Made by a program: the position numbers and the translations under genes. A DNA stretch of 64,000 nucleotides from Streptomyces sp. NBC_01353 (lineage in GTDB: Bacteria; Actinomycetota; Actinomycetes; Streptomycetales; Streptomycetaceae). The stretch is from NCBI RefSeq assembly GCF_036237275.1, contig NZ_CP108352.1:4774001-4838000 (forward strand). The letters run 5' to 3'. Positions 1-17,100 of this stretch are shown here, in pieces. The notes under the pieces are model-generated. The model did no database searches, was not told where the DNA came from, and worked only from the letters and a program-made list of their open reading frames with translations. Every line of letters starts with the position of its first letter. Position 1 is the stretch's first letter.

Positions 1-1
1 C

Positions 2-277
2 GTCTCGCAGATCATGGAGCCGGGCCAGTTCATCATCTTCTGGTCGACGCTGATGCACGCCTCGCACCCGCACGAGGGCCTGACCAACGACATGCGGATG
101 GGCTTCGCCACCCGCTACGTCCCCTCCTCGGTCTCCGTCTACCCGGGCAGCGACCACATCGAGGAGTACGGAGGCCGCATCAGCCTGGAGCGGTACGGCT
201 CCGTCCTGGTCAGCGGCGAGAACAAGAACCCCGGCAACCGCATGGTCACGGAGACCACCCGGGGGATGAAGTTCTGA
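2..277 (+). CDS. Non-haem Fe(II)/2-oxoglutarate halogenase, SyrB2-like (3' end only)
   Basis: Only the last 91 codons lie in the window; the gene starts upstream. The fragment reads like the C-terminus of SyrB2/CytC3-type chlorinating enzymes, which chlorinate an aminoacyl group held on a carrier protein. The distal iron-ligand His (codon 56-58, in FWSTLMHAS) is followed exactly 19 residues later by an Arg (codon 113-115, in GFATRYVP). This matches the SyrB2 His235/Arg254 spacing, where the Arg binds 2-oxoglutarate. The decisive HxA/G motif (halogenase) versus HxD/E (hydroxylase) lies outside the window, so halogenation is inferred from overall C-terminal similarity and from the SyrC-like and dehalogenase-like genes that follow. 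One base separates its stop from the next start, so it is probably in the same operon. Confidence 0.8.
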
Positions 278-278
278 G

Positions 279-1448
279 ATGACCACGAAAACCCTGAGCG
301 TGGTAGAGGTGCTGGAACTCTGCCAGCCACTGCTCGGCGCGGCCGCGGAGACCCTGCGGGTCTTCCCGGCCGGCGAGCGGGCCGCCGAGGAGTACGGGCC
401 GAAGGCCGTCGCACGGTGCAACGAGGTCCTCACCGCCCTCGGCTCCGCGTACGGCCTGACGGTCCCCCGGTTCGTCTCGCCGGCCCCGGAGCGCCCGTCC
501 AGCCTGGAGGTCGCCCTCAGCGCCTACTGCGATCTGGAGCTGGGCAGTTGGCGGCCGGTGGCCGAGAGCTCGGGGGAGTGGGACATTCCGGCGGACGGCC
601 TGGCCGGGCTCGCGGCCCTGCCCGGCCACCGCCGGATCGAGGCCGAGGGCGTGCCCGCCTTCGACTCCTTCGCGGCGGGGCCGGCCGGGGACGAGGCGAT
701 CGTCCTCGTCCTGCCCTCCGGGGTGCCGGCCACGCTGTTCCGGCCCTGGCTGGAAGAGCTGTCCACGGACCGGCTCGTCGTCACGTACGAGAACCCGTAC
801 CTCTTCGGGCAGTGGCGGACCCTGGACACCCCGGAAGCGGACTTCGCGGAGGAGACCGCGCTGGTCGGCGCCCTGCTCACGGCGTACGGACTGCGGCGGG
901 CGCACCTCGTCGGGATCTGCGGAGGAGCGCCGGTCGCCCTCGACGCGGCCGCCGCGTTCGGCGACCGGGTGGAGACGCTGACGGTGCTCCACCCTGATCT
1001 GAACTTCGGGGCGGGGGTCATGCGCACCCCGTTCCAGAAGCAGTTCCAGAGCGTGCTCGCCGGGGCGGCCTCCGGCCCGCGCCGGGCCCGCGAGACGCTG
1101 AACCTGTTCCTCGACCCGAACATGCTCTTCGGGGTGCCGCCGCGCCTGGCCCCGTACGTCCTCTACCCGTACGGAGATGTGGAGCTGTTCCACCGGTACG
1201 CCAAGCAGAACCACGCGCTCATGGCGTACGACGCGAACGACGCCGCCCGCCGGGTCGGGCAGCGGGTGCTGATCGCCACCAGCCGTACGGACCGGATGAC
1301 CCACCCCGAGACGGCGCACCACTTCGGTGAGCTCGTGGCGGGCGAGGTCACGGTCGTGGAGCGCGGCGCCGGGAACCACCACGACATCCTGATCCCGGAC
1401 GCGGAGGTCTACACGATGCTCCGGGAGTTCATCGGCGGTGGGGTGTGA
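279..1448 (+). CDS. SyrC/CmaE-like aminoacyl transferase (alpha/beta-hydrolase fold, Cys nucleophile)
   Basis: This 389-residue alpha/beta-hydrolase has its nucleophile elbow at residues 212-216 (G-I-C-G-G), with Cys214 where hydrolases usually have Ser. A late Asp (in TSRTDRM) and a His (in GNHHDIL) complete a likely triad. In the syringomycin and coronamic acid pathways, SyrC and CmaE use such a Cys to shuttle an aminoacyl group from one carrier protein to another. Immediate linkage to a SyrB2-type halogenase repeats the SyrB2-SyrC partnership. The likely job is to move the halogenated residue onto the stand-alone T-TE protein encoded downstream. The stop overlaps the GTG start of the next gene by four bases. 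A plain hydrolase or thioesterase role cannot be excluded. Confidence 0.78.
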   Translation: MTTKTLSVVEVLELCQPLLGAAAETLRVFPAGERAAEEYGPKAVARCNEVLTALGSAYGLTVPRFVSPAPERPSSLEVALSAYCDLELGSWRPVAESSGEWDIPADGLAGLAALPGHRRIEAEGVPAFDSFAAGPAGDEAIVLVLPSGVPATLFRPWLEELSTDRLVVTYENPYLFGQWRTLDTPEADFAEETALVGALLTAYGLRRAHLVGICGGAPVALDAAAAFGDRVETLTVLHPDLNFGAGVMRTPFQKQFQSVLAGAASGPRRARETLNLFLDPNMLFGVPPRLAPYVLYPYGDVELFHRYAKQNHALMAYDANDAARRVGQRVLIATSRTDRMTHPETAHHFGELVAGEVTVVERGAGNHHDILIPDAEVYTMLREFIGGGV

Positions 1449-2191
1449 GCACGCCCACGCCGTCGGCGGAGCGCGTCGCGGTGGTGACCCACGCGACGCG
1501 CTACGCGGGCCCCGGCTCCGTGGACGGCCTGCGCAAGGCCGGCTACACCGTCCTCTGCCACGACGAGGACTTCCTCGACGAGGCCGCGCGGACCGCCTTC
1601 GAGGAGGGTCGCGACGGGGCGGTGGCCTGCGACGCGAAGACCCCGACCGGGGCGGTCGGGCAGGCCGTCAAGCGGTATGGCCGGCTCGACCTCGTCGTCA
1701 GCAACGACGTCTACCCGGCCCGCTATCTGCCGGTGGACCAGGCCGACCCGGCGGAGCTGCGGCGGGCCGCCGAGGCACTGCTCGTCACCCCTGCGGCAGT
1801 GATCGCGAAGGCCGCCGCCCCGATGAAACGCCGGGGGAGCGGGCACATCGTGCTGATGACCTCCGCCGCGCCGCTGCGGCCGGAGACCGGGTTCTCCGTG
1901 TACAGCTCGCTGCGCGCCGGAGCCTCGGCCTACGCACGGGCGGCGGCGCGCGAACTCGCCCCGCACGGCGTCACCGTGCACGCGATCGCCCCCAACTTCC
2001 TGGAGAGCGAGACCTATTACCCCGAGGAGCTGTGGGGGACGGACGAGGGCCGGGAGAAGCTCCGCGGTCTGCTGCCGGCGGGCCGGCTCGGCACGGCGCA
2101 GGAGATCGGCGACCTGGTGGTCTTCCTGGGCAGCGGCTCGGCCGACTTCCTCACCGGCGACGTCATCCACTTCACGGGCGGCTGGGCCTAG
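1445..2191 (+). CDS. Halohydrin dehalogenase-like protein (HheC family, SDR fold)
   Basis: The 248-residue protein has the SDR fold but not SDR chemistry. The catalytic set is Ser140, Tyr153 and Arg157, with the 13- and 4-residue spacings of HheC Ser132-Tyr145-Arg149; ordinary SDRs have Lys in the last position. The N-terminal cofactor loop lacks TGxxxGxG and reads THATRYAGPGS, as in HheC-type enzymes that have traded the nucleotide site for a halide site. Pro183-Asn184-Phe185 matches the HheC halide-pocket Pro-Asn-Tyr, and CHDEDF, LVVSND and the RLGT/FLTG C-terminal motifs also match. Such enzymes convert a vicinal halohydrin to an epoxide plus halide, or the reverse with another nucleophile. 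Lying in an operon with a halogenase, it probably acts on the chlorinated residue. GTG start overlaps the previous stop. Confidence 0.85.
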   Translation: MSTPTPSAERVAVVTHATRYAGPGSVDGLRKAGYTVLCHDEDFLDEAARTAFEEGRDGAVACDAKTPTGAVGQAVKRYGRLDLVVSNDVYPARYLPVDQADPAELRRAAEALLVTPAAVIAKAAAPMKRRGSGHIVLMTSAAPLRPETGFSVYSSLRAGASAYARAAARELAPHGVTVHAIAPNFLESETYYPEELWGTDEGREKLRGLLPAGRLGTAQEIGDLVVFLGSGSADFLTGDVIHFTGGWA

Positions 2192-2228: not shown

Positions 2229-3305
2229 GTGAGTACTCGGCCGACAGCGCCCGAGGAGTGCGAGGTCATACCCGGGCACAGCCTGGTGGAACAGACCCTC
2301 GTCGAGATCTGGAAGACGACGCTCGACCGGCCGTCCGTCGGCCTCGACGACGACTTCTTCGCGACCGGGGGCGACTCCCTCCTGGCCCTGGTGACCATCG
2401 AGCAGATCAACCAGCGCCTGGGCTGGGCGCTCAACATGGGCGATCTGCTGCGCCACCGTACGATCGGCTCGCTGAGCACGCACAAGGCGCCGGCGAAGGC
2501 CGCGAACACCGAGCGGGCCATCATCCGGATGAGCAACCAGGGCTCACGGACCCCGCTGCTCTTCATCCACCCCGGCCTCGGTCTCGTCGACGGGTACGCC
2601 CGTCTCGTACGGCTCCTCGGCACCGACCGGGGCTGCTACGGACTCCAGTCCCCGCACATCAGCGCGATGGACGTGCCGGACGACATGCGGGAGCTCGCCG
2701 CGCTCTACGCGGACCTGATCGAGGACGAGTTCGGCGAGGACGAGTTCCATCTCGTCGGAGCCTGCGCGGGCGGGGTGATCGGCTACGAGATCGCCCGCAT
2801 CGCCGAGGAGCGCGGGCTCGGGCTGCGGAAGCTGGTGATCGTCGACGGGTATCTCGACGGCTCGGCGCCCGAGGTGGACGAGGCGGAGCGGCTGGTCGAC
2901 TACCGCGACGACGTGCTGCGGATCGTCGCCCCGCACACCGCGTACCCGCCGCTCGCCCCGGCCGACGCCACCCGCGAGGGCGTCTACCGCGAGATCGCCG
3001 CCGCCCTGTTCGGTGCCGACTGGGAGGCCCGCGGCGACGGCGGGACCCAGTTCGCCGAGCGGCTGCACAAGGCGTTTCGCACCACGGCGCGCGCCCTGGA
3101 GACCTACCGGCCCGAGCCCTTCGACATCGACGCGCTGATGCTCCTCGCGAAGGACAACGAGACCTTCCCGGACTGGCGCAGGGCGATCACCGGGGAGCTG
3201 ACGGCCGAGGTCATGGACTCCGAGGAACACGGCCTGCGGCTCTGTGTGACCGACGCGGCGCACATCGCCGCGCGCATCGACGACTTCGTGGGCGAGGGAC
3301 AGTGA
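2229..3305 (+). CDS. Stand-alone carrier protein-thioesterase didomain (T-TE) with Cys nucleophile
   Basis: Residues about 15-90 are a peptidyl carrier domain with the phosphopantetheine Ser50 in TGGDSLL. Residues about 105-355 are a type I thioesterase. Its nucleophile elbow is G-A-C-A-G with Cys179 instead of Ser, and the probable catalytic His is His345 (DAAHIA). Cys thioesterases occur in some NRPS systems, for example obafluorin synthetase, where they favour cyclising release over hydrolysis. There is no adenylation or condensation domain, so the carrier must be loaded in trans. The NRPS downstream ends in a free C domain, which makes this protein the likely other half of the last module. 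GTG start at 2229 follows an AGAGAG ribosome-binding site; 37 bases separate it from the dehalogenase-like gene. Confidence 0.85.
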
Positions 3306-3307
3306 CG

Positions 3308-3532
3308 ATGGACCAGTCAGGCACCAACCCCTTCGAGAACGAGGCGGGCGTGTACCGCGTCCTGACCAACGCGGCGGGCGAGCACTCGCTCTGGCCGGAC
3401 TTCGTCGCCGTTCCCGACGGCTGGGACACCGCCTTCGGCCCGGACGTCCGGGCCGCCTGCCTCGGCTACGTCGAGGAGCACTGGACGGCCCTCGCCCCGG
3501 CCGGCTCCCAGGAACGGAACCCGCGCTCATGA
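3308..3532 (+). CDS. mbtH: MbtH-like protein
   Basis: A 74-residue MbtH homologue with the family signature NPF, SLWP, GW, and the RAACL..YVEEHW stretch. MbtH proteins bind the adenylation domain and support its folding and activity, so this one presumably serves the NRPS that follows. The stop codon overlaps the NRPS ATG as ATGA, which suggests translational coupling. An in-frame GTG at 3302 overlaps the previous stop and would add two residues; the ATG at 3308 is preferred because family members usually start close to the NPF motif. Confidence 0.95.
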
Positions 3533-6500
3533 CCGCGCGGGTGGAGAACGCGGCGGACGCCGGTGCCTGGACCTCCGGGCTCGTCGCGCGGTTCGAGGAG
3601 CAGGCCGGCCGGGCGCCCGGAGCCGTCGCCGTGCGGTGGGGAGCCACTTCGCTCTCGTACGCGGAGCTGAACGCCCGGGCCAACCGGATCGCGCACCGGC
3701 TGATCGCCCGGGGGATCGGCCCCGAGGACACCGTGGCCGTCGCCCTGCCGTCCTCGCCCGAGCTGGTGGCGGCCCTGCTCGGCACGCTCAAGGCCGGCGC
3801 GATGTACCTGCCGCTCGACCCGGGCTATCCGGCCGAGCGCCTCGCCTACATGACGGCGGACGCCCGCCCGCGCGCGCTGATCACCAGCCCCGAGGCCGCG
3901 GCCGGGCTCGGACCGCTGGAGGCGGCCACCCTGTACGTGGGCGAGGAGGGCACCGAGCCGGCCACGAACCCGGCCGGCCGGTCCGCCGGGCCGGGCACGG
4001 CCGCGTACACCATCTACACCTCCGGCTCGACGGGCCGCCCCAAGGGCGTGGTCGTCACCCACGGCTCCCTGGCGAACTTCCTGGACTTCATGTCCGCGCA
4101 CCACCGGGTGCACGCGGACGACGTCGTGCTGTCCACGACCCCGATCTCCTTCGACATCGCGGGCCTGGAGTTGTACCTCCCGTTGGTCGAGGGGGCCACG
4201 CTCCACCTCGTCCCGCGCGGCACCACCGTCGACGGCGCCGCGCTGCGCCGCCATCTCGCCGAGGCCCGGCCCACCCTGATCCAGGGCACGCCCGCCCTCT
4301 GGCAGCTGCTGCGCGAGGCCGGCTGGACGCCCGCCGAACTCGCCAGGGGCTCGCGGGTGTTGTGCGGCGGCGAGGCGCTGCCGCAGGACCTGGCCGACTT
4401 CCTCGCCGCCGACGGTCACGTCGAGGTGTGGAACCTGTACGGACCCACCGAGACGACCATCTGGTCCCTGGTCGCCCCCGTGCGCTCGGGCGAGCCGGTC
4501 ACCATCGGCACCCCGCTGTGGAACACCGGCGCCCACGTCCTCGACGAGCGCCTCGCACCCGTCGCCGACGGCGAGCCCGGCGAGCTGTACCTCTCCGGCG
4601 ACGGCCTGGCCCGCGGCTACCGCGGGCGGGCCGCGCTGACCGCCGAGCGGTTCGTCGCCTGCCCCTTCGGCGCCCCCGGCGCCCGCATGTACCGCACGGG
4701 TGACGTCGTGCGCCGGCGCGCCGACGGCGCCCTCGACTTCCTCGGCCGCGTCGACGAACAGGTCAAGATCCGCGGCTACCGCATCGAACTCGGCGAGATC
4801 GAGGAGGCGTTGCGCCGACTGCCCGAGGTCGCCCAGGCCCGTGTCGTCGTCCGCGCGGACGCCGTCGACCACCGGCAGCTCGCCGGCTATGTCGTCCCCG
4901 CGCCCGGCCACGCCCCCGAGCCCGTCGCGCTGCGCGCCGCGCTCACCGCCTGGCTCCCCGACCACATGATCCCGGCCGGCATCGCCATCCTCGACCGCTT
5001 CCCGCTGACCCCGGCCGGCAAGGTCGACCGCAAGGCCCTGCCGCCGCTGGAGTTCGCGCACTCCACCCCGTACCGCGCACCCGGCGACGAGCGCGAGCGG
5101 GCCCTGGTGGAGCTCTTCCGCGAGGTCCTGCGGGTCGAGCGGGTCGGTGCCGACGACAGCTTCTTCGACCTCGGCGGCAACTCCCTGCTCGCCACCCGCC
5201 TCCTGGCCCGCGTCCGCGCCACGCTCGCCGTCGAACTCCCCATCCGTACGGTCTTCGAGGACCGCACCCCGGCCGCGCTCGCCCTCCGCCTCGCCGAGGG
5301 TGCCCCCGCCCGGCCCGCGCCCCGGATCATGGAGCGCGGGGAGCGTATCCCCGTCTCGTACGCCCAGCAGCGCCTGTGGTTCCTGCACCGGCTCGAAGGG
5401 CCGAGCACCACCTACAACCTGCCCATCGCCGTCCGGCTCACCGGCGACCTCGACCTCGACGCGCTGCGTGCCGCCGTCGACCATCTGCTCGCGCGCCACG
5501 AGAGCCTGCGGACGTACTTCGCCGAGGGCCCTGGAGACGCCGAGCAGATCGTGGTGCCCGCCGCCGAGGCCCGCGTCGACGTCACCGTCCACGACGTGCC
5601 GGAGCAGGACCTCCAGGCCGCGATCGACACCGCCGCCGGGTACCTCTTCGACCTGGCAGCCGAGATCCCGACCCGCGTCGACCTCTTCCGCACCGGCCCC
5701 CGGGACCATGTCCTGCTGCTCTGCATCCACCACATCGCCAGCGACGGCTGGTCCCTCGCCCCGCTGGTGAAGGACCTCTGCGAGGCGTACGGAGCCCGGC
5801 GCCGCGGCCAGGACCCCGAGGCGCCGGAACTCGGCGTGCAGTACGTGGACTACACGCTGTGGCAGCGCGAGCTCCTCGGCTCCACGGACGACCCGGACTC
5901 CCCGATGTCCCGGCAGCTCGGCTACTGGCGCGAACGGCTCGCGGGCGCCCCCGAACTGCTCGACCTGCCCACCGACCGGCCGCGCCCGGCGCTCGCCACC
6001 TTCCGCGGCGACCTCGTCCGCTTCGAGGTGCCCGCCGCGCTGACCGAGAGGCTCCAGGACCTGGCGCAGCGGGAGCGGGCCAGTCTCTTCATGGTGCTCC
6101 AGGCCGCCGCCGCGACCCTGCTGACCAAGCTCGGCGCGGGCACCGACATCCCGCTCGGCTCCCCGCTCGCCGGCCGCGCGGACAGCGCGCTCGACGAGCT
6201 CGTCGGCTTCTTCGTCAACACGCTCGTGCTGCGCACCGACACCTCGGGCAACCCGGCCTTCGCCGAACTCCTCGCGCGCGTGGGTGAGTCGAACCTCGCC
6301 GCGTACGAGCACCAGGACCTGCCCTTCGAGTATCTGGTCGAGGTGCTCAACCCGGCCCGTACCACCAGCCATCACCCGCTGTTCCAGGTGATGCTGGTGC
6401 TGCAGAACAACATCGAGCCCGAGTGGCGGCTCGACGGCCTCACGGCCGCGCACGAGACCGTGCCCACCCACACCGCCAAGTTCGACCTGACGATCGAGCT

Positions 6501-9500
6501 GACCGAGCGCTTCGACGCGCGGGGCGGGCCGGACGGGCTGCGGGGCGAGATCGAGTACGCCACCGACCTGTTCGACCGGGAGACCGTCGAACGGTTCTCC
6601 CGCTATCTGCTGCGGATCCTCGACGCCGTCGTCGCCGACCCCGCCCGCCCACTGGACTCCATCGACCTCCTCGACGAGGCCGAGCGCACCGCGCTCCTCG
6701 ACACCTGGAACGCGACCGCGCGCGAGCTGCCCGGCGACTCCTTCCCCGCCCTGTTCGAAGCGCGGGTCGCCCGTACGCCCGACGCGCTCGCCCTCGTCCA
6801 CGAGGACACCGAGCTGAGCTATGCCGAGCTCGACCGGCGCGCCAACCGGATCGCCCACTGGCTCATCGAGCGGGGTGTCGGCCGCGACGACGTCGTCGGC
6901 CTGTCGCTGCGCCGCTCGCCCGAGCTGCTCTGCTCCCTCCTCGGCATCCTCAAGGCCGGCGGCGTCTATCTGCCGCTCGACCCCGACTACCCGGCCGAGC
7001 GGCTCGCGTTCATGGTCGAGGACACCCGTCCCAAGGTGCTGATCACGTCGGGCGACGTCCTTGCGAAGCTGCCCGCCGAGGCGCAGGAGGTGCTCCGGCT
7101 CGCCGTCGACGACCCGCGGACCCGGGACGAGCTGGCGGCCCTGCCCGACCGCGCCCCTGGCGACGCCGAGCGGCGCGCCCCGCTGCGGCCCGAGGACCTG
7201 GCGTACGTCATCTACACCTCGGGCTCGACCGGGCGGCCCAAGGGCGTCGCCGTCACCCACCGCGGCATCCCGAACCTGGCACGCAGCTACGTCGAGCGGT
7301 TCGCCCTCGACGAGAACTCCCGCTTCCTGCAGTTCTCCTCGATCAACTTCGACCCGACGTTCTGCGAGATGTGCTGCACCCTGCTCTCGGGCGCGGCCGT
7401 GATCCTCACCTCGCCCGAGGAGCTGCTCTCCCCGGACCGCCAGCGAGCCCTGACCGCCCGCTTCCGGCCCACCCACATCACCTTCTCGCCGACGATCCTC
7501 GGCTCCATGGCCGAGGACGCGCTCGCGGACGTCCCGTACGTGATGGTGGCCGGCGAGGCCTGCCCGCCGGGACTGGCGGCGACCTGGTCGCGCGGTCGCA
7601 CGATGATCAACGCGTACGGGCCGACCGAGGCGACCGTCGACACCCTCTACTGGGAGTGCGGCAGCGCCGGACCCGCCTTCGAGGCCGACTCGGTGCCGGT
7701 GGGCCGCCCGGTCCACAACACCCGGGTCTACGTCCTCGACGCCGCCCTGCGGCCCGTCGCCCCGGGCGTCACCGGCGAGCTGTACATCGCCGGACACGGC
7801 CTGGCCCGCGGCTACCTCAACCGGCCAGGCCTGACCGCCGAGCGCTTCGTCGCCTGCCCGTACGGCCCGCCGGGCTCCCGGATGTACCGGACCGGCGACC
7901 TCGCCACCTGGCGCACCCTGCCGTCCGGCGAGGGCGTCGTCGACTTCGTCGGACGCGCCGACGACCAGGTCAAGATCCGCGGGATGCGGATCGAGCTCGG
8001 CGAGATCGAGGCCGTGCTCGACACCCACGAGGGCGTCGCCCAGGCGGTCGTCGTCGTCCGTGAGGACACCGCGCAGCACAAGCAGCTCGTCGGCTACGTC
8101 GTACCGAAGGCCGCCGACGCGGCCGGTCGAGCCCGTGACCTCGCCGACGACATCGAACATGTCGACCGATGGCAGGAGATCCACGAACAGGGCTACAGCG
8201 AGCAGCAGGACCTGGGCGTCGAGCAGGACTTCACCGGCTGGAACAGCAGCTACGACAACCAGCCCATCCCGCTGGTGGAGATGCGCGAGTGGCAGGCCGC
8301 CACCGTCTCCCGCATCCTCGACCTGAAGCCCCGCCACGTCCTGGAGGTCGGTGTCGGCTCCGGCCTGATCCTCTGGCAGGTCGCTCCGCACGTCGAGACG
8401 TACGCGGGCGTGGACTTCTCGCCCTCGTTGATCCAGACGCTGGGCGCGCGCGTCGAGGAGTCGGAGCTGGGCGACCGGGTGCTGCTGCGCAGCCTCGCCG
8501 CACACGAGATCGGCGACCTGGCCGGCCGCCGCTTCGACACCGTCGTGATCAACTCGGTCGCCCAGTACTTCCCGAGCGTTCCGTACCTGATCGACGTGCT
8601 GAAGCAGGCCATGGACCTCCTGGAGCCGGGCGGCCGGATCTTCCTCGGCGACATCCGCCATCTGGGGCTCCTGCACCCCTTTCTCACCGCGACCGCCCTG
8701 CACGACGGGGCACACGCCGACGAACAGGTCGCGGCCGTGCGTGACCTCGTCGCGCACACGGTGGAGCTGGAGAGCGAACTCCTCCTCGACCCCGCGTTCT
8801 TCAGCCGCGTCGGCGAAGAGATCGCCGACGTCGCGGGCGTCGACATCCAGCTCAAGCGCGGCCACCACTCCAACGAGCTGACGGACTTCCGCTACGAGGT
8901 CGTCCTCCACAAGCGGGGCGCGGAGCTGCGTTCCGTACGGGACGCAGCCGAGCTGCTCTGGCAGGAGGCGGGTGGCCTGGACGCCGTCCGCGAGCTCCTC
9001 GACTCCACCCGCCCGGTGACGCTCCGCGTCACCGGCATCCCGAACCGGCGGGTCGCCGCCGAGGTCGCGGCCGCCCACCGGATCCGCACCGGGTCGGCGG
9101 GCCGTGTGGCCGACCTCGGACTCGACGGGCAGGAGCGGCCCGGCATCGACCCGGAGGCCGTCCACGCCCTGGCCGAACAGCTCGGCTACCGCGCGAAGGC
9201 GACCTGGACCGATGCGTCCGAGGGCGACCTCTTCGATGTCGTCCTGATCGAGGCGGGCGCCGAACAGCCCTTCCTGACCGACCTGTTCCTGCACAAGGCG
9301 ACCGGCGGGCAGTCGCTCCACGAGCAGGGCAACGACCCGCGTGCCGAGGACCACGGTCGCAAGCTCGCGCTCGAAGTGCGCCGGCACGCGGCCCGGCAGC
9401 TCCCCGAGCACATGGTGCCCGCGGCCGTCGTCCTCCTCGACAAGCTGCCGCTCACCCCGAACGGCAAGCTCGACACCCGTCGGCTGCCCGCCCCGGACTT

Positions 9501-11784
9501 CACCTCCCGTGCCGTCCGCCCGCCGCGCACCGAGCGGGAGATCGCCCTCGCCCGGCTCTTCGCCGAGGTCCTCGGTCTGGAGAGCGTCGGCGTGGACGAC
9601 CAGTTCTTCGACCTCGGCGGCGACTCCATCCGCTCGATCCAGCTGGTCAGCCGGGCCCGCGCCGAGGGCTTCGTGATCACCCCGCGGGACGTCTTCCAGC
9701 ACCAGACCGTCGAGGCGCTGATCGTCCGTGCCGCCCAGGCGACCGAGACGCTCGACCCGGCGGCCGTGGCCGAGGGCGAGCTGCCGCACTGGCTGAAGAC
9801 CCTCGAAACGCCCGACCCCTCGTACGGCGAACCCGGCGGCACGTACGCCTGGTCGACCCGAACGCTCCCCGCCGAGCTCACGGACGCGCTGCTCACCGCC
9901 CTGCCCCGGATGTTCCACGCGGGGCCCGAGCACATCGCGCTCGCCGCGCTCGCCCCGGTGCTCATCGAATGGCGCGGGCGGCACATCCCGGAGGCCAGGT
10001 CCGCGCTTCGGGTGGATCTCGCGACCGCGGCCGTCCCGGAGGCGGTACCGGTCCGGCTCACGCCGGGACTCGCGAACCTGGAGAAGAGCCTGTCGGACCC
10101 GCGCGGTCTGGCCCGTGCGCTGAAGCGGGTGAAGGAGCAGCTCCGCGCCCTGCCGGCCGAGGGCCGCAACTACGCGGAGCTGCGGCAGGGCGGCGAGGAC
10201 GTACGGCGGCAGCTGGCGGCCTTCGCGCCGTCGCAGGTCTGCTTCCGGTACGACGTCTCCGGCGACACGCCGCCGTATCCGCTGCTTATTGACGTACGGC
10301 AGGGGGAGGGCGGTTCGGTCGACACCCGCTGGCAATGGGACACCGCGCTCTTCACCGAGGCGGACGTCGCCGCGCTCGCCGACCGGTGGACCCGGACCCT
10401 GACCGCTCTCGCCGGCCTGATCGCCCACCCGGAACTGGGCGGACTCACCCCCTCCGACGTACGGCTCCTCAACCTCAAGCAGTCCACGCTCACCGCCCTG
10501 GAGCAGACCTACCCGGGGCTGCGGGACGTGCTGCCGCTCGCCCCGCTCCAGCAGGGCCTGCTGCTGCACGCCGGCGCCGCCGACCCGGAGACCGACGACG
10601 ACCCGTACCAGGGGCAGACCGTCTTCGACCTGGACGGACCGCTGGACGCCGAGCGGCTCCGGCGGGCCGCGCACGGCCTCCTGATGCGCCACGACAACCT
10701 GCGGGCGAGCTTCGCGGTCCGTGGTCTGGAGACACCCGTCCAGGTCGTACGGGACACGGTCGACGTGCCCTGGGCGAGCCACGACCTGTCCGGGCTCGCC
10801 CCCGCCGAACAGGCCGCGGAGCGGGAGCGGATCGTCGCCGAGGACGCGGCGCTCCGCTTCGACCTGGCGACCGGTCCGATGCTCCGCTTCTCGCTGCTGC
10901 GGTTCTCCGACACCCGGCACGAGCTGCTCGTCGCGGACCACCACATCCTCCTCGACGGCTGGTCCATGCCGGTCGTCCGGGGCGACCTGTTCGCGCTGTA
11001 CGAGGGCCGGGACCTGGGACCCGTCACTCCGTTCCGGGACTATCTGGCCTGGCTGGCGGAGCAGGACCGGGACGCGGCGGCCGAGGCCTGGCGGGCGTAC
11101 CTGAAGGGTGTCGACGCGCCGAGCAGGGTCGGGCACGCGGGCCTCTCCCCGCACGTCCTGCCGCGCACCACCTCCGCCGTCCTCCCCGCCGGTCTCACCC
11201 GCGATCTGACACGGGCCGCGGCCCGGCTCGGCGTCACCCTGAACACGGCGCTGCAGACCGCCTGGGGCCTCCAGCTGGGGCGCCTCACGGGCAGCGGAGA
11301 CGTCCTCTTCGGCACCACCGTCTCGGAGCGGCCGGCCGAGATCGACGGCATCGAGTCCGTCGTCGGCCTGCTCATCAACACCGTGCCGCTGAGGGTCCGT
11401 ACGGAGCCCGGCGAGCCGCTCGCCGCGACCCTCCGCCGGGTGCACTCCGCCCAACTGGAGGTCTTCCCGCACCGCCATCTCTCGCTGACCGAGATCCAGC
11501 GTCTGATGGGCGCGGGCGAGCTGTTCGACGCGTACTACGTCTTCCAGAACTACCCCGACCAGGAGGATCCGACCGGCGGGACCGACGGACTGGGGGTGAG
11601 TGAGCGGACCGACGGCGCCAAGGGCGTCTCGCACTATCCGCTCGGCATCACGGTCCTCCCCGGGGACCGTCTGGAGATCCTCTTCGGCTACCACCCCGAT
11701 CTGTTCGACCAGCGGCGGATCGACACCATCAAGGAATCCCTCATCGAGATCATCGAGGCCATCGCGGCGGAGGGCTCGGCATGA
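3529..11784 (+). CDS. Nonribosomal peptide synthetase, A-T-C-A(MT)-T-E*-C
   Basis: A 2,751-residue, two-and-a-half-module NRPS. Module 1 is A1-T1 (Ser552) without a C domain, so it probably starts the chain. Its substrate code reads D-I-L-Q-L-G-L-I-W, the classical glycine code. Module 2 is C2 (H734-H735-x3-D739), A2, and T2 (Ser2033). A2 is interrupted between motifs A8 and A9 by an N-methyltransferase domain (about residues 1545-1790, SAM motif VLEVGVGSG). My hand-read A2 code is D-P-C-T-M-A-A-V-D, which I cannot assign; Asp at the last position hints at a basic side chain. After T2 comes only the C-terminal half of an epimerisation domain (about 2080-2300), lacking HHxxxD. The protein ends with a complete C domain (H2471-H2472-x3-D2476) that has no A or T after it. 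Product prediction: Gly, then an N-methyl residue, then a trans-loaded residue. Confidence 0.93.
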
Positions 11785-13061
11785 AGAGCTTCTTCCGACT
11801 GATCCGCGAACTGCCCATCCCCGTACGGATCCTGCTGCTGTGCGCGATGGCGCGCGCGGTCAGCTTCTTCGCGATCCTCGCCTACCTCCCGATCTACCTG
11901 CACGACGCGCTCGACATGAACGGCGCCACCATCGGCTATGTGCTCGGGGTGTGCCTGATCGTCGGCACGGTGGTCAGCGTCTACGGCGGCTATCTCGCCG
12001 ACCGGTTCGTGAAGGTCCACTTCATGATCGCCCTCGACGTGGTGCTCACCGTCCTGTACGGCGGGCTGCCGCTGATCGGCTCGCCGGTGCTGGTGATCGG
12101 CATCCTGCTCGCCGCCAACATCGCCTCGTCGTCCATGAGCGTCACCGCCAACGCGCTCCTCGCCGATCTGCTGCCCTCGGAGAACCGGGCGAAGGTCTTC
12201 TCGCTGCGGTACTCGCTGCAGAACATCGGCGCCGCCGTCGGCCCCTTCCTGGGCGTCTGGACGGTGCAGGCCGGCCAGGGCGGTCCGTTCGTACTCTCCG
12301 CGGGCGTCATCTTCGCCGCCCTGCTGCCGCTGCTCGTCTTCCGCAAGCTCTTCACCGGCGCGGCGGCCGAGGACGCCGCCGCCCGGCAGGAGAAGACCGA
12401 AGAGGCGGCGGACGACGCCGAGTCGATGAACTTCCGCGAGGTGCTGCGGGTGATGCGGGCCGACCGGCGGCTCGGGCTCTTCACCCTCGGCGGCATCCTC
12501 AGCATCGTCGTCTACGGCCCGCTGCTGACGTACATGTCGCAGTACCTGGTCACCGTCGAGTCCCGCGACACCGCCTACCAGCTGGTCGCCTACATCTCGG
12601 CCGCCAACGCGATCGTCGTGATCTCCACCCAGTACGTCATCGGCAGCAGGCTCAAGGAGAAGACGCTGCTGCGCTGGCTGACCTGGGGCACCGGGGCGTT
12701 CGTCCTCGGGCTCGTCGGCATGGCCCTGTCCACCGAGGCATGGATCATCGTCGCCGCGATCGTCGTCTTCACGATCGGCGAGGTGATCGTCGTACCCGCC
12801 GAGTACATGTTCATCGACGCCATCGCGCCCGACAACCTGCGCGGCAGCTACTTCGGGGCCCAGAACCTCGTCCACATCGGTGTGGCCATCGGCCCGATCA
12901 TCTGCGGCTTCCTGCTCGTGCACGCCTCGCCCGCGGCGATGTTCGCCGCGCTCGTCGCGCTCGTGATCGCCGGCTGGTGGTTCTACGTCCTCGGCTGCCG
13001 CGCCAGCGCACCCAGCACCGCCACCGCCGTCGGTGCCGACGCACAGAAAGTGAATCCGTGA
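11781..13061 (+). CDS. MFS transporter, probable peptide exporter
   Basis: This 426-residue protein has the hydrophobic pattern of a major facilitator, with the conserved loop [10 protein letters not shown] after the second helix and a charged central loop (about residues 195-220) dividing two six-helix halves. Its ATG overlaps the NRPS stop as ATGA, so it is translated with the cluster and is the obvious candidate to export the peptide and give self-protection. The substrate cannot be read from the sequence. Confidence 0.88.
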
Positions 13062-13069
13062 GGTAGATC

Positions 13070-13735
13070 ATGAGCTTCGTCGAGATCGTCCAGAAGACCC
13101 TCTGTCCCTTCGCCAAGCCGTCGAAGATGGGGCCGGCCCTCACCGTCACCACGGCCGACGTCGAGCGGGAGCTGAGAGAACACCATGCCGCCATCGCCGA
13201 CTTCTTCCGTACGGCGAGAGACGCGGAGCTCGACGGCATGGTGATCACCTTCGAGGACGAGACCCTCGGGGCGACCCTGGACTCCCTGACCCGGCTGACG
13301 AAGCGGTTCTTCGAGACGCTCTGCGCGCTCTGGCCGAGCGTCTACATCCAGGACGCACCGGAGCCGGACGAGACCTGGTACGCCATGATCGAGGGCGAGC
13401 GGTTCTTCGTCGTCTCGTTCGCCCCCTGCTATCCCGAGCACTCGCCGCGCTACAACCACGGCAGCCGGCACACGTACTTCCTGCTCCAGCCGGCCTCCAC
13501 CTTCGAACGGAACGCGGAGGCGATCGACAAGCGCAGGCAGCGCATTCACCGGGCGTTCACGGCCGTGGGCAAGCCGTACGACGCCCGGCTCGCCAATGTC
13601 GAGAACGACATGTTCAAGTCCGTCATGCCGATCTCGCCGATCGACCGGCACATTCCGTGGTGGGAGGCCGGGGTCCCAACGGAGGCCGAGGCCGGGCTCG
13701 GCGCCGAGCCCGGCGAGACGAAGCGGGCGGGTTAG
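13070..13735 (+). CDS. Cluster protein of unknown function, possible YqcI/YcgG-like haem oxygenase
   Basis: A 221-residue soluble protein that I do not recognise with confidence. It opens with a Cys-Pro-Phe-Ala motif (about residues 12-15) and carries APCYP, SPRYNHGSRHTYFLLQP and WW motifs. These recall the YqcI/YcgG family, some of whose members (GntA of guanitoxin biosynthesis) are haem-dependent N-hydroxylases. If that holds, it could oxidise a guanidine or amine in the peptide. It lies 8 bases after the exporter, and its stop directly abuts the ATG of the phosphopantetheinyl transferase, so it is part of the biosynthetic operon. Confidence 0.55.
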   Translation: MSFVEIVQKTLCPFAKPSKMGPALTVTTADVERELREHHAAIADFFRTARDAELDGMVITFEDETLGATLDSLTRLTKRFFETLCALWPSVYIQDAPEPDETWYAMIEGERFFVVSFAPCYPEHSPRYNHGSRHTYFLLQPASTFERNAEAIDKRRQRIHRAFTAVGKPYDARLANVENDMFKSVMPISPIDRHIPWWEAGVPTEAEAGLGAEPGETKRAG

Positions 13736-14461
13736 ATGATCGAGGGACTCCTGCCCCGGCCGGTCGCGACCGCGGAGGCGTTCGGCGACCCGGCCGGGGA
13801 ACCCGTCCCCTTCCCCGGGGAGGAGCATCTCCTTCCCGGCGCCGTGCCCGTGCGGCGCCGGGAGTTCACCACCGCGCGGGCCTGCGCGCGACGGGCGCTC
13901 GGGCGGCTCGGCGTCCCGCCGGCGCCCCTCCCGTACGACTCCAACCGCGCCCCCGTCTGGCCGGACGGGTTCATCGGCAGCATCACGCACTGCACCGGCT
14001 ACCGGGGCGCCGCCGTCGCGCGGGCCACGGACCTGGCGGCCCTCGGCATCGACGCCGAGCCGCACGGTCCGCTCGACGGCACCGGCGTGCTGTCCATGGT
14101 GAGCAGTGCCGAAGAGCGGGCGCATCTCGCCGATCTGGCGGCGGTGCGGCCGGACGTCCACTGGGACCGGGCCCTGTTCAGCGCCAAGGAGAGCGTGTTC
14201 AAGGCGTGGTTCCCGTTGACCGGGCGGTGGCTGGACTTCAAGGAGGCCACGGTCGCCTTCCAGCCGCGCACGGAAAGCTTCACCGCTCGCCTGCATGTCG
14301 AAGGACCGCTGGTCGACGGCGTGCGGACGACCGGCTTCGACGGGGGATTTCTGGTCAGCGGCGGGCTGATGCTCACCGCGACGACGGTGCGCCGGGCGAC
14401 CCTCGCGGGGCGGGGTGCCGAGAATGACCCCGATCTGTCACGACCGAGAGGGCCCCGATGA
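13736..14461 (+). CDS. 4'-phosphopantetheinyl transferase (EntD/Npt-type)
   Basis: A 241-residue Sfp/EntD-superfamily enzyme that installs phosphopantetheine on the carrier domains of the synthetase. The magnesium-binding pair Asp106 and Glu108 (GIDAEP) and the K151-E152-S153 motif (SAKESVFKAW) are present, as is the substrate-binding GFIGSITHC stretch. The start codon abuts the preceding stop and the stop overlaps the ATG of rsgA, so it is embedded in the operon. It most likely activates T1, T2 and the T-TE protein. Confidence 0.93.
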   Translation: MIEGLLPRPVATAEAFGDPAGEPVPFPGEEHLLPGAVPVRRREFTTARACARRALGRLGVPPAPLPYDSNRAPVWPDGFIGSITHCTGYRGAAVARATDLAALGIDAEPHGPLDGTGVLSMVSSAEERAHLADLAAVRPDVHWDRALFSAKESVFKAWFPLTGRWLDFKEATVAFQPRTESFTARLHVEGPLVDGVRTTGFDGGFLVSGGLMLTATTVRRATLAGRGAENDPDLSRPRGPR

Positions 14462-15633
14462 CGCGTGTGACGCTTCCGGGCTATGGGTGGGACTCCGACT
14501 GGGCGGACGCGTTCGCGCCGTACGAGGGGACGGGTCTCGTACCCGGCCGGGTCGTACGGGTGGACCGCGGGCGCTGCGAACTCGTGGTGGAGGGAGGCGA
14601 GGTGGGGGATTCCGCGGCCGGTGGGACGGGCGGCGGCGCGGACGGCGAGACGGGCGCCGCCCGGACGGGCGCCGGCGTGGCCGTCCGTACGGTACGGGCC
14701 GACACCGAGCCGGCCCTCGGCTCCGACCCGCGCGACACCCCCTGCACGGGCGACTGGGCCGCCGTCGACACCACTCCCGCGAGCGGCCCCGTCGTCCGGG
14801 CGCTGCTGCCCCGCCGCACACGCTTCACCCGTTCGACCTCGTCCGCCCGCTCCGAGGGCCAGGTCCTGGCGGCCAACATCGACCTGGCCGTGATCGCGGT
14901 CTCGCTGGCCGTCGAGCTCGATCTGGGCCGACTGGAGCGCTTCCTCTCGCTGGCCTGGTCCAGCGGCGCCCAGCCCGTCGTCGTCCTCACCAAGACGGAC
15001 CTGGTCCCCGACATCACCCATCTCGTGAGCGACGTGGAGCAGGCGGGCCCGGGGGCCGCGGTGTTCCCCGTCAGCGCGGTCAGCGGCGCAGGCCTCGACG
15101 CCCTCGCCGCCGAACTCGCGGACCGTACCTCGGCGTTGCTCGGCCAGTCGGGGGTGGGCAAGTCCACGCTCGTCAACGCCTTGCTCGGCGTGGAGGAGCA
15201 GGAGTCGGGTCCGGTCCGGGGCAGCGACGGCAAGGGCCGGCACACCACCACGACCCGCGATCTGCTGCTCCTGCCGCGCGGCGGACTGCTGATCGACACC
15301 CCCGGGCTGCGCGGGGTGGGCCTGTGGGAGGCCAACGAGGGGCTCTCCCAGGTGTTCGCCGAGATCGAGGAGCTGGCCGCGCACTGCCGCTTCCACGACT
15401 GCGAGCACCATGCCGAGCCGGACTGCGCGGTGCTCGCGGCGGTCGAGGACGGCACGCTCTCGCACCGCCGATTCGAGAGCTATCGCAAACTCCTGCGCGA
15501 GAGCGCGTGGATCGCCTCACGCACCGACGCACGGCTGCGCGCCGAACTGAGCCGGGAGTGGAAACGCCGGGAGGCGGCCGGTCGGGAGATGTACGAACGC
15601 AAGCGTGGCGGGAAACACCGCAAGGCGTTCTGA
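14458..15633 (+). CDS. rsgA: Ribosome small subunit-dependent GTPase RsgA
   Basis: A 391-residue circularly permuted GTPase. The G4 motif TKTD (178-181) precedes the P-loop GQSGVGKS (229-236) and G3 (DTPG), and a zinc site follows in HCRFHDCEHHAEPDC. RsgA checks maturation of the 30S decoding site. An Ala/Gly-rich insert (about residues 50-75) lies in the N-terminal OB-fold region. Its ATG overlaps the phosphopantetheinyl transferase stop as ATGA, which ties its translation to the peptide cluster. That placement could be chance, or could mark a second, protective copy if the product targets the 30S subunit. Confidence 0.92.
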   Translation: MTRVTLPGYGWDSDWADAFAPYEGTGLVPGRVVRVDRGRCELVVEGGEVGDSAAGGTGGGADGETGAARTGAGVAVRTVRADTEPALGSDPRDTPCTGDWAAVDTTPASGPVVRALLPRRTRFTRSTSSARSEGQVLAANIDLAVIAVSLAVELDLGRLERFLSLAWSSGAQPVVVLTKTDLVPDITHLVSDVEQAGPGAAVFPVSAVSGAGLDALAAELADRTSALLGQSGVGKSTLVNALLGVEEQESGPVRGSDGKGRHTTTTRDLLLLPRGGLLIDTPGLRGVGLWEANEGLSQVFAEIEELAAHCRFHDCEHHAEPDCAVLAAVEDGTLSHRRFESYRKLLRESAWIASRTDARLRAELSREWKRREAAGREMYERKRGGKHRKAF

Positions 15634-16077: not shown

Positions 16078-17100
16078 GTGACCACTGACCAGGGTGTACT
16101 CCACTACGACTTGTCCGCCGACGAAGTCGCCCAGTTGGACGCGTTGATCGCCGAACTGGGCGAGGCGGGCTGCGACCCGGGCGACCCGCACTTCCACGAC
16201 GAGGCCTGGGAGCTCGCCGCGCGACTCCCCGTGGGTGTGCGGAAGTTCCTCGCGGAGTTCCGGCGCGACGACCCGGCCGCGGCGTTCAAGATCAGGGGAT
16301 TCGCGGTCGACGACAGCGCCGTGGGGCCCACTCCGCGGAACTGGGCGGAAGCCGCGGCGTCGCTGCGCACCCGGCGCGAGGAACTCTTCCTTTCCTTGAT
16401 CGGCAAGTGTCTCGGGGAAGTCTTCAGCTGGCCGACTTTGCAGTCCGGAAGAATGATCCAGAATGTGCTGCCGATCGCCGGCGAGGAGAACGAGCAGAGC
16501 GGTCACGGCAGCGACGTCCTGCTCGAATGGCACACCGAGGACGGGTTCCACCCCTATCGCTGCGACTATCTGGCCCTGTTCGGAATCCGAAACCATGACC
16601 GAGTTCCGACGACCGTCGCCTCCATACGGGATGTGACGCTGAGCGCGGAAACGCGCAGGGTCCTCGGGGAACCGCGGTTCTACATTCTTCCCGACGACGA
16701 GCACCTGCGGCAGCTCGCCGCCCAGCAGCCGAACCACCCGGGCCTGTTGCGGATGCGGGCGATGCGCGAGACCCCGGAGCCGGTGGCGGTGCTGTTCGGC
16801 GCGCCCGACTCGCCGTACCTGCGGATCGACCCCTTCTTCATGCGCTGTGTGGAGGGCGACGCGTCGGCCGAGCAGGCGCTCAAGGAGCTCGTACGGGAGC
16901 TGGAGGCGGCGACCCGCGACGTGGTCGTCGAGGCGGGCACGCTGCTCGTCGTCGACAACTACCTCGCCGTGCACGGCCGCAAGGCGTTCACCGCCCGCTA
17001 CGACGGCACCGACCGGTGGCTGCAGAAGGCGATCATCACCCGCGACCTGCGCAAGTCCCGCGACACCCGGGAGACGGCCGCCGGCCGGGTCCTGGTCTAG
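16078..17100 (+). CDS. VioC/AsnO-type Fe(II)/2-oxoglutarate amino acid hydroxylase
   Basis: A 340-residue clavaminate synthase-like oxygenase. Iron ligands are His152 and Glu154 (WHTEDGFHPYRCDY) and His299 (AVHGRKAF); Arg313 (GTDRWLQK) is the likely 2-oxoglutarate anchor. The HTED-FHPYR signature is typical of beta-hydroxylases acting on free Arg, Asn, or enduracididine (VioC, AsnO, MppO, GntD). The GTG at 16078 follows a GAGAGGG ribosome-binding site and is preferred over upstream in-frame positions. It probably supplies or tailors the residue used by the second NRPS module; membership in the cluster is inferred from closeness. Confidence 0.88.
   Translation: MTTDQGVLHYDLSADEVAQLDALIAELGEAGCDPGDPHFHDEAWELAARLPVGVRKFLAEFRRDDPAAAFKIRGFAVDDSAVGPTPRNWAEAAASLRTRREELFLSLIGKCLGEVFSWPTLQSGRMIQNVLPIAGEENEQSGHGSDVLLEWHTEDGFHPYRCDYLALFGIRNHDRVPTTVASIRDVTLSAETRRVLGEPRFYILPDDEHLRQLAAQQPNHPGLLRMRAMRETPEPVAVLFGAPDSPYLRIDPFFMRCVEGDASAEQALKELVRELEAATRDVVVEAGTLLVVDNYLAVHGRKAFTARYDGTDRWLQKAIITRDLRKSRDTRETAAGRVLV

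Follow-up and report, generated by a model that had tools for sequence, protein, structure and literature searches.

A halohydrin dehalogenase gene beside a SyrB2-type halogenation cassette in a Streptomyces nonribosomal peptide synthetase cluster: a candidate route from cryptic chlorination to an epoxide

The locus

The 64,000-nucleotide stretch of Streptomyces sp. NBC_01353 analysed here (hereafter the window; C1:4774001-4838000 in a genome of 8.57 Mb) begins inside a nonribosomal peptide synthetase (NRPS) cluster in which a gene for a putative halohydrin dehalogenase (HHDH) adjoins the genes of a SyrB2-type halogenation cassette. The halogenase gene starts 665 bases to the left of the window, and the analysis took in the nearest 18 kb of DNA on that side. 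The core genes all lie on the + strand, in the order LuxR-type regulator, small open reading frame, adenylation-thiolation (A-T) protein (627 residues), halogenase (313 residues), transferase-like protein (389 residues), HHDH (248 residues), thiolation-thioesterase (T-TE) protein, MbtH, NRPS, MFS transporter, YqcI/YcgG protein, phosphopantetheinyl transferase, RsgA-like GTPase and VioC/GntD-type hydroxylase (Table 1). The GTG start of the HHDH gene overlaps the stop codon of the transferase gene, with four bases shared (GTGA); the gene sits inside the assembly operon, between those for the transferase and the T-TE acceptor.

Table 1. Features of the cluster, in window coordinates unless given on C1 (Fe/2OG, iron and 2-oxoglutarate dependent)
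Feature	Position	Strand	Basis or remark
A-T didomain protein, Thr code	C1:4771441-4773324, outside the window, 5' of the halogenase	+	Code DFWNVGMVH
SyrB2-type non-haem Fe/2OG halogenase, 3' end	1..277 (coding part 2-277); whole gene C1:4773336-4774277	+	PDB phmmer, TIGR01762
SyrC-like alpha/beta-hydrolase, predicted aminoacyl transferase between carrier proteins	279..1448	+	Cys214 (GICGG)
Putative halohydrin dehalogenase, HheC-like	1445..2191	+	PDB ranking, Ser140-Tyr153-Arg157, T15-x4-Y20-x-G22, tree
T-TE didomain protein, TE nucleophile Cys179 (GACAG)	2229..3305	+	Predicted acceptor of the chlorinated/epoxidised residue and release domain
MbtH-like protein	3308..3532	+	PF03621, 80.8 bits
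NRPS, A-T-C-A-MT-T-(about 270 residues without Pfam match)-C	3529..11784	+	Pfam domains, A-domain codes
MFS transporter	11781..13061	+	
YqcI/YcgG family protein	13070..13735	+	Pfam 27.8 bits vs cut-off 27
4'-Phosphopantetheinyl transferase	13736..14461	+	
RsgA-like ribosome-assembly GTPase, second copy	14458..15633	+	
Fe/2OG hydroxylase, VioC/GntD (arginine/enduracididine beta-hydroxylase) type	about 16078..17100	+	GTG start from orthologue alignment

The halogenation cassette

A phmmer search of the PDB with the halogenase returned three sequences, SyrB2 (2fct, E 5.7e-152), CytC3 (3gja, E 2.1e-121) and a distant monooxygenase (E 4.9e-11), and the protein scores 474.5 bits against the NCBIfam model TIGR01762, 'chlorinating enzyme' (cut-off 226.3). 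Its iron site is formed by H122-Q-A124 and H241, that is, H-x-A and not H-x-D/E, and this H/A/H arrangement is kept in all 35 homologous halogenases examined from the genus. Preceding the halogenase gene is that of an A-T protein whose pocket code is DFWNVGMVH, the positions of which were set from the core motifs without alignment to GrsA. The code is identical in both orthologues of the protein, found in two other genomes (G388 and G769), and DFWNVGMVHK is given as a Thr code in PMC9113097. Among 11 other A-T proteins adjoining halogenases, five have the same code and six a one-letter variant; the set held 13 A-T rows besides the query, with L072 and L074 containing stops in naive translation. 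A Thr code in the partner of such a halogenase leads us to expect C4 of threonine as the predicted chlorination site, with a vicinal halohydrin as the product.

The next gene encodes an alpha/beta-hydrolase with a Cys nucleophile, Cys214, in a GICGG motif present in all three orthologues. The Pfam Abhydrolase_1 score (22.0 bits) lies under the cut-off of 25.8, and a PDB search found no relative at E 0.001. In the T-TE protein, the TE nucleophile is likewise a cysteine (Cys179, GACAG) in all three clusters. This is unusual in NRPS release domains; Cys-nucleophile TEs include beta-lactone and beta-lactam formers.

These results agree with a first-pass annotation of the DNA, which placed the coding sequences of the halogenase 3' end, the transferase-like protein and a protein resembling short-chain dehydrogenases/reductases (SDRs) where we find them. 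Its proposal of a SyrB2-type enzyme is borne out by the HxA motif recovered on leftward extension, where an HxD/E triad is absent, and the SyrB1-like A-T protein with a Thr code that it anticipated to the left is the gene preceding the halogenase. The SyrC-like transferase that it proposed also stands as a prediction, a Cys-nucleophile alpha/beta-hydrolase beside an A-T protein and a halogenase being what is expected of the SyrC type.

A halohydrin dehalogenase-type protein

Pfam and NCBIfam label the 248-residue protein merely as an SDR, under every NCBIfam cut-off shown. Against the PDB, its ten best chains are all of the HHDH type (E 1.7e-50 to 4.4e-43), named as halohydrin dehalogenase (eight), halohydrin epoxidase A (one) and dehalogenase (one). 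The best of these is 3zn2 (E 1.7e-50, 41% identity), and the first plainly SDR-named chain appears at E 2.2e-28; identity to a HheC copy in locus L054 is 40%. Among SDRs, HHDHs are set apart by two motifs, T-X4-F/Y-X-G and S-X12-Y-X3-R (PMC4989007). The N-terminal motif is present as T15-HATR-Y20-A-G22, and is the same in G388 and G769, and the catalytic S140, Y153 and R157 occur in all three orthologues. The nucleotide motif TGx3(A/G)xG is absent. SDRs have a NAG motif, at the position of which this protein has SND. Residues P183, N184, L186 and Y192 align with pocket residues of HheC, and Tyr20 stands in place of Phe12. In HheC, F12Y increases activity towards most of the substrates tried, and a Tyr occupies that position in HheB and HheG (PMC11976700).

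Both HHDH motifs are found in six of the 23 loci read, namely, in the window protein, its orthologues in G388 and G769, a more remote protein from genome G735 and two copies of HheC; none of 16 other SDR matches has either motif. In a tree of 22 rows, one branch (support 100/99) separates the six HHDH-like rows from the 16 SDRs; within it, the proteins of the three clusters group together with support 99/100. The Ser140-Tyr153-Arg157 and Pro183-Asn184-Phe185 residues noted in the first-pass annotation are exactly as stated there, its reading that the protein has no NAD(P) site fits the missing glycine-rich motif, and the comparison with HHDHs that it called for comes out in their favour, both in the best PDB matches and in a phylogeny that groups the protein with HheC and not with the SDRs.

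One further relative, from genome G220 (L053 7343-8062), is 44-45% identical to the HHDH and keeps the pocket motif, the Ser and the Arg, with the catalytic Tyr replaced by Pro; it has the T-X4-F/Y-X-G motif alone. This genome lies outside the 40 genomes of the genus with a match to the SyrB2-type halogenase, and the protein was dropped as a second functional example since the catalytic Tyr is missing.

Conservation and distribution

Gene content, gene order and motifs are shared with two further genomes. G388 and G769 both carry, in unchanged order and at 61-95% identity, the genes running from PNPOx and the LuxR-type regulator to the hydroxylase. The ratio of nonsynonymous to synonymous substitution rates (dN/dS) of the HHDH is about 0.21 between the window's own genome and G388 and about 0.19 between it and G769. 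The LuxR and RsgA genes have lower values than this, and the A-T, halogenase, transferase and T-TE genes higher ones. Values near 0.2 indicate that the HHDH is being kept by purifying selection. Given the SyrB2 match at E 5.7e-152, the ten HHDH-type PDB chains and the block kept in two other genomes, the observation is beyond chance.

The HHDH itself was matched in few of the genomes searched, in samples that overlap to an unknown degree. At E 1e-30, whole-genome searches found it in 3 of 392 genomes of the genus (the window's own, G388 at 84% and G220 at 45% identity), 3 of 394 of the class (own, G769 at 91% and G735 at 39%), 2 of 394 of the family (own and G769) and, around G769, 1 of 61 (G769 itself). 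At E 1e-20, 12 of 199 relatives have a match, and the eleven besides the window's own are 32-37% identical and have neither HHDH motif. A scan of GTDB contigs with a profile of three HHDHs gave seven loci, two of them HheC-type and none with this cluster, which is not a measure of rarity because records near the window's genome may be left out. At locus L055, an alpha/beta-hydrolase gene lies 5' of HheC, with a near-threshold match to EHN, the N-terminal region of epoxide hydrolases (21.9 bits vs cut-off 22.8). A plasmid search gave one record, a catabolic-looking HHDH on a Microbacterium plasmid, with an annotated epoxide hydrolase.

Halogenase homologues are more widespread, with 45 matches in 40 of 392 genomes of the genus. 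We examined 35 of the 43 SyrB2-type loci other than those of the window's genome and G388, the eight weakest (40-45% identical) being left out; some of the 35 stretches end at contig ends. A SyrC-like homologue (E 1e-5) occurs within the stretch in 12 of them, and an HHDH in none, by homology search and motif check. The nearest candidate, a match of 128 residues at 30% identity about 8 kb from the halogenase in one locus (L083), was rejected, since it shows Tyr-x3-Lys and lacks both HHDH motifs. When the 1640 open frames of at least 180 residues in these loci were scanned for the motifs, a single one had both, a 627-residue frame in L062; as this frame does not match the HHDH query, we take it for a chance match. 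The HHDH is thus a specific addition to the SyrB2 cassette, inherited in one cluster family.

The rest of the cluster

The first A domain of the NRPS has the code DILQLGLIW, which we take to be Gly-like, and the second DPCTMAAVD. Residues ~2061-2330, which follow the second T domain and precede the final C domain, have no Pfam match; by eye they resemble one half of an epimerisation or condensation domain. The YqcI/YcgG protein has no PDB match at E 0.1; characterised members of its family are haem-dependent guanidine N-hydroxylases (PMC12866846). The hydroxylase encoded at 16078-17100 is closest to arginine/enduracididine beta-hydroxylases. The presence of both in one conserved cluster suggests a hydroxylated, N-hydroxylated arginine unit, and our guess at the product is a tripeptide in which Gly is combined with a modified, N-methylated arginine and an epoxy-aminobutyrate. 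The window's own genome, G388 and G769 each hold another copy of the RsgA-like GTPase (14458-15633), 64-66% identical to it, and at least two RsgA matches at E 1e-60 are found in 8 of 121 genomes of the genus, the own included. The cluster copy is possibly a self-resistance gene, which would point to the small ribosomal subunit.

A lysine/ornithine N-monooxygenase gene (L005 10120-11436; MbtG/KtzI-like) lies beside the cluster in the window's genome and G769; it was dropped as a core gene because a search of the whole G388 genome found no counterpart at E 1e-60. An upstream class-III aminotransferase was dropped likewise, as neither the G388 nor the G769 stretch matched it.

Proposed pathway

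We consider it likely that this is an NRPS cluster with a cryptic chlorination cassette, in which threonine would be converted to 4-chlorothreonine and then to the 3,4-epoxide. This was also the reading of the first-pass annotation, which the results support. The A-T protein would load L-Thr, the halogenase would chlorinate C4 of the carrier-bound residue, and the SyrC-like Cys transferase would transfer it onto the T domain of the stand-alone T-TE protein. The HHDH would then expel chloride with the C3 hydroxyl as the nucleophile, Tyr153 acting as the base, Ser140 holding the hydroxyl and Arg157 tuning the Tyr, and chloride would leave into a pocket lined by Y20, P183, N184, F185, L186 and Y192. 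The upstream residues would come from the NRPS and probably include one arginine derivative, and release of the product would fall to the TE. Each of these reactions is predicted from the sequence, as are the order of transfer and dechlorination and the survival of the epoxide in the product; the HHDH could act on the carrier-bound residue, the peptide-bound residue or the released product. Consistent with the proposed substrate, the HHDH HheA5 acts on ethyl (S)-4-chloro-3-hydroxybutyrate (PMC4989007), which is the des-amino analogue of a 4-chlorothreonine ester; the predicted carrier-bound substrate would be a thioester.

Chlorination of this kind has a close precedent in largimycin (lrg cluster, Streptomyces argillaceus), which shares with the present cluster a separate Thr-loading protein, a halogenase and a transferase, and in which Thr is chlorinated and the chlorine then lost to give an epoxide (PMC9396626, PMC13200230). 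The mutants described in PMC9396626 indicate that LrgH chlorinates Thr and that the epoxide depends on this chlorination; in the halogenase mutant, the Thr hydroxyl is kept and the epoxide is gone. The authors state there that the S. argillaceus genome has no HHDH homologue and leave the enzyme open, with no clear candidates, and the available passages of a 2026 follow-up (PMC13200230) propose a dehalogenation step and name no enzyme. Cryptic chlorination to an epoxide is therefore not new, a precedent that the first-pass annotation did not mention. However, lrg is an NRPS/AT-less polyketide synthase system for which those passages report no HHDH homologue, whereas here the NRPS is small and an HHDH gene adjoins the transferase gene. 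What is new is an HHDH-family gene placed for that chemistry, an obvious candidate, judged by its sequence and position, for the missing enzyme. The absence of an HHDH is also mentioned in a passage of PMC6941271. In the open-access literature, with subscription papers and preprints outside the search, we found no description of a biosynthetic cluster that contains an HHDH gene, nor of such a gene tied to a biosynthetic halogenase.

Other known systems resemble parts of this one. The A-T protein with its Thr code, the halogenase and the Cys transferase serving a T-TE protein parallel SyrB1, SyrB2 and SyrC of syringomycin; the syringomycin product retains 4-chlorothreonine, whereas here a dehalogenase gene follows. 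In the CmaB/CmaC route to coronamic acid, as in the pathway proposed here, chlorine is introduced to be displaced when the ring closes. CmaC, however, closes a cyclopropane by carbon attack, in contrast to the oxygen attack by an unrelated enzyme family predicted here. CmaC belongs to the vicinal-oxygen-chelate family, and no CmaC-like cyclase of this family was matched by Pfam among the cluster proteins scanned, the small open reading frame included. The protein shares with HheC of Agrobacterium radiobacter (PDB 1pwx; HheC-type chain 3zn2) 40-41% identity, the triad, the nucleophile-pocket motif and the lack of an NAD(P) motif. Unlike HheC, it has Tyr20 for Phe12 and no match to the C-terminal extension bearing Trp249, and its gene neighbours a halogenase and an NRPS, whereas hheC shares an operon with an epoxide hydrolase gene (PMC11976700).

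Objections and alternative explanations

Several points weigh against a biosynthetic, epoxide-forming HHDH. The three genomes represent one inherited cluster, so that what is seen is conservation and not a set of independent pairings, and the absence of an HHDH from all 35 other SyrB2-type loci means that the cassette as such needs none. The tree carries a program warning of long branches joined at the HHDH group, and the G220 relative, lacking the catalytic Tyr, shows that the lineage includes altered members. HHDH reactions are reversible, and the Cys nucleophile of the T-TE protein could leave room for other ring chemistry at the same residue or for a different last step. Known HHDHs have been reported in the mineralisation of halogenated compounds (PMC4989007).

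One alternative is that the HHDH performs clean-up or self-protection, clearing stray free 4-chlorothreonine or mis-released chlorinated product while the true product keeps its chlorine. Catabolic HHDHs are known (PMC4989007), and the 12 of 35 other loci with a SyrC-like homologue and no HHDH indicate that such clusters work without one. Yet, without an epoxide hydrolase, the epoxide would be no safer than the chlorohydrin, and the Pfam scan found no epoxide-hydrolase match among the cluster proteins scanned, unlike the neighbours of the HHDH on the Microbacterium plasmid and in L055. Together with a gene that overlaps the transferase gene inside the assembly operon, ahead of the T-TE gene, this makes a clean-up role very unlikely in our estimate. 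It is scarcely credible that the protein is an ordinary NAD(P)H-dependent SDR reductase or a catalytically dead relative: the database label of SDR, below all NCBIfam cut-offs shown, and the existence of altered members such as the 44% identical G220 protein without its Tyr would allow it, but the glycine-rich nucleotide motif is absent, SND occupies the site of the NAG motif of SDRs, the Ser-Tyr-Arg triad is complete in all three orthologues and the gene is under purifying selection. With both HHDH motifs present and the nucleotide motif missing, we dropped the reductase as a candidate.

Closer to the proposed pathway, the epoxide made by the HHDH might be an intermediate, opened in turn by the HHDH with another anion or by a group of the peptide, for instance, the N-hydroxyguanidine that the YqcI and VioC-type enzymes would lead one to expect. 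Chlorine would then be exchanged for nitrogen, carbon or oxygen and no epoxide would remain. HHDHs do open epoxides with azide, cyanide and nitrite (PMC4989007; nitrite also in PMC13411527), the cluster encodes both the YqcI/YcgG protein and the VioC/GntD-type hydroxylase, and largimycin-type compounds with a hydroxyl in place of chlorine exist (PMC13200230). Against this, no source of cyanide, azide or nitrite was recognised among the cluster proteins scanned, in which no dedicated search for one was made, and we regard such an exchange as unlikely. Epoxide formation from 4-chlorothreonine thus remains our preferred account of the cluster.

Significance

The cassette, the enzyme family and the net chemistry are already known; the pairing is new. 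HHDH researchers have noted that physiological functions other than breakdown cannot be excluded (PMC4989007), and the substrates tested on HheC are, according to the authors, probably not its natural ones (PMC11976700). The cluster supplies a specific enzyme and a specific predicted substrate. A bolder version, which we think rather unlikely, would make the HHDH a carrier-protein-dependent dehalogenative epoxidase or exchange enzyme in the assembly of an electrophilic guanidino tripeptide, epoxy or epoxide-derived, whose target would be the ribosome, and the duplicated RsgA-like GTPase would confer self-resistance; HHDHs would then serve natural-product assembly besides the breakdown of xenobiotics. 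If the preferred account of epoxide formation is correct, a family that is a workhorse of biocatalysis would have a biosynthetic role, with an enzyme that has evolved to act on 4-chloro-3-hydroxy acyl substrates, and the combination of a SyrB2-type halogenase with an HHDH would be a genome-mining marker for epoxy-peptides.

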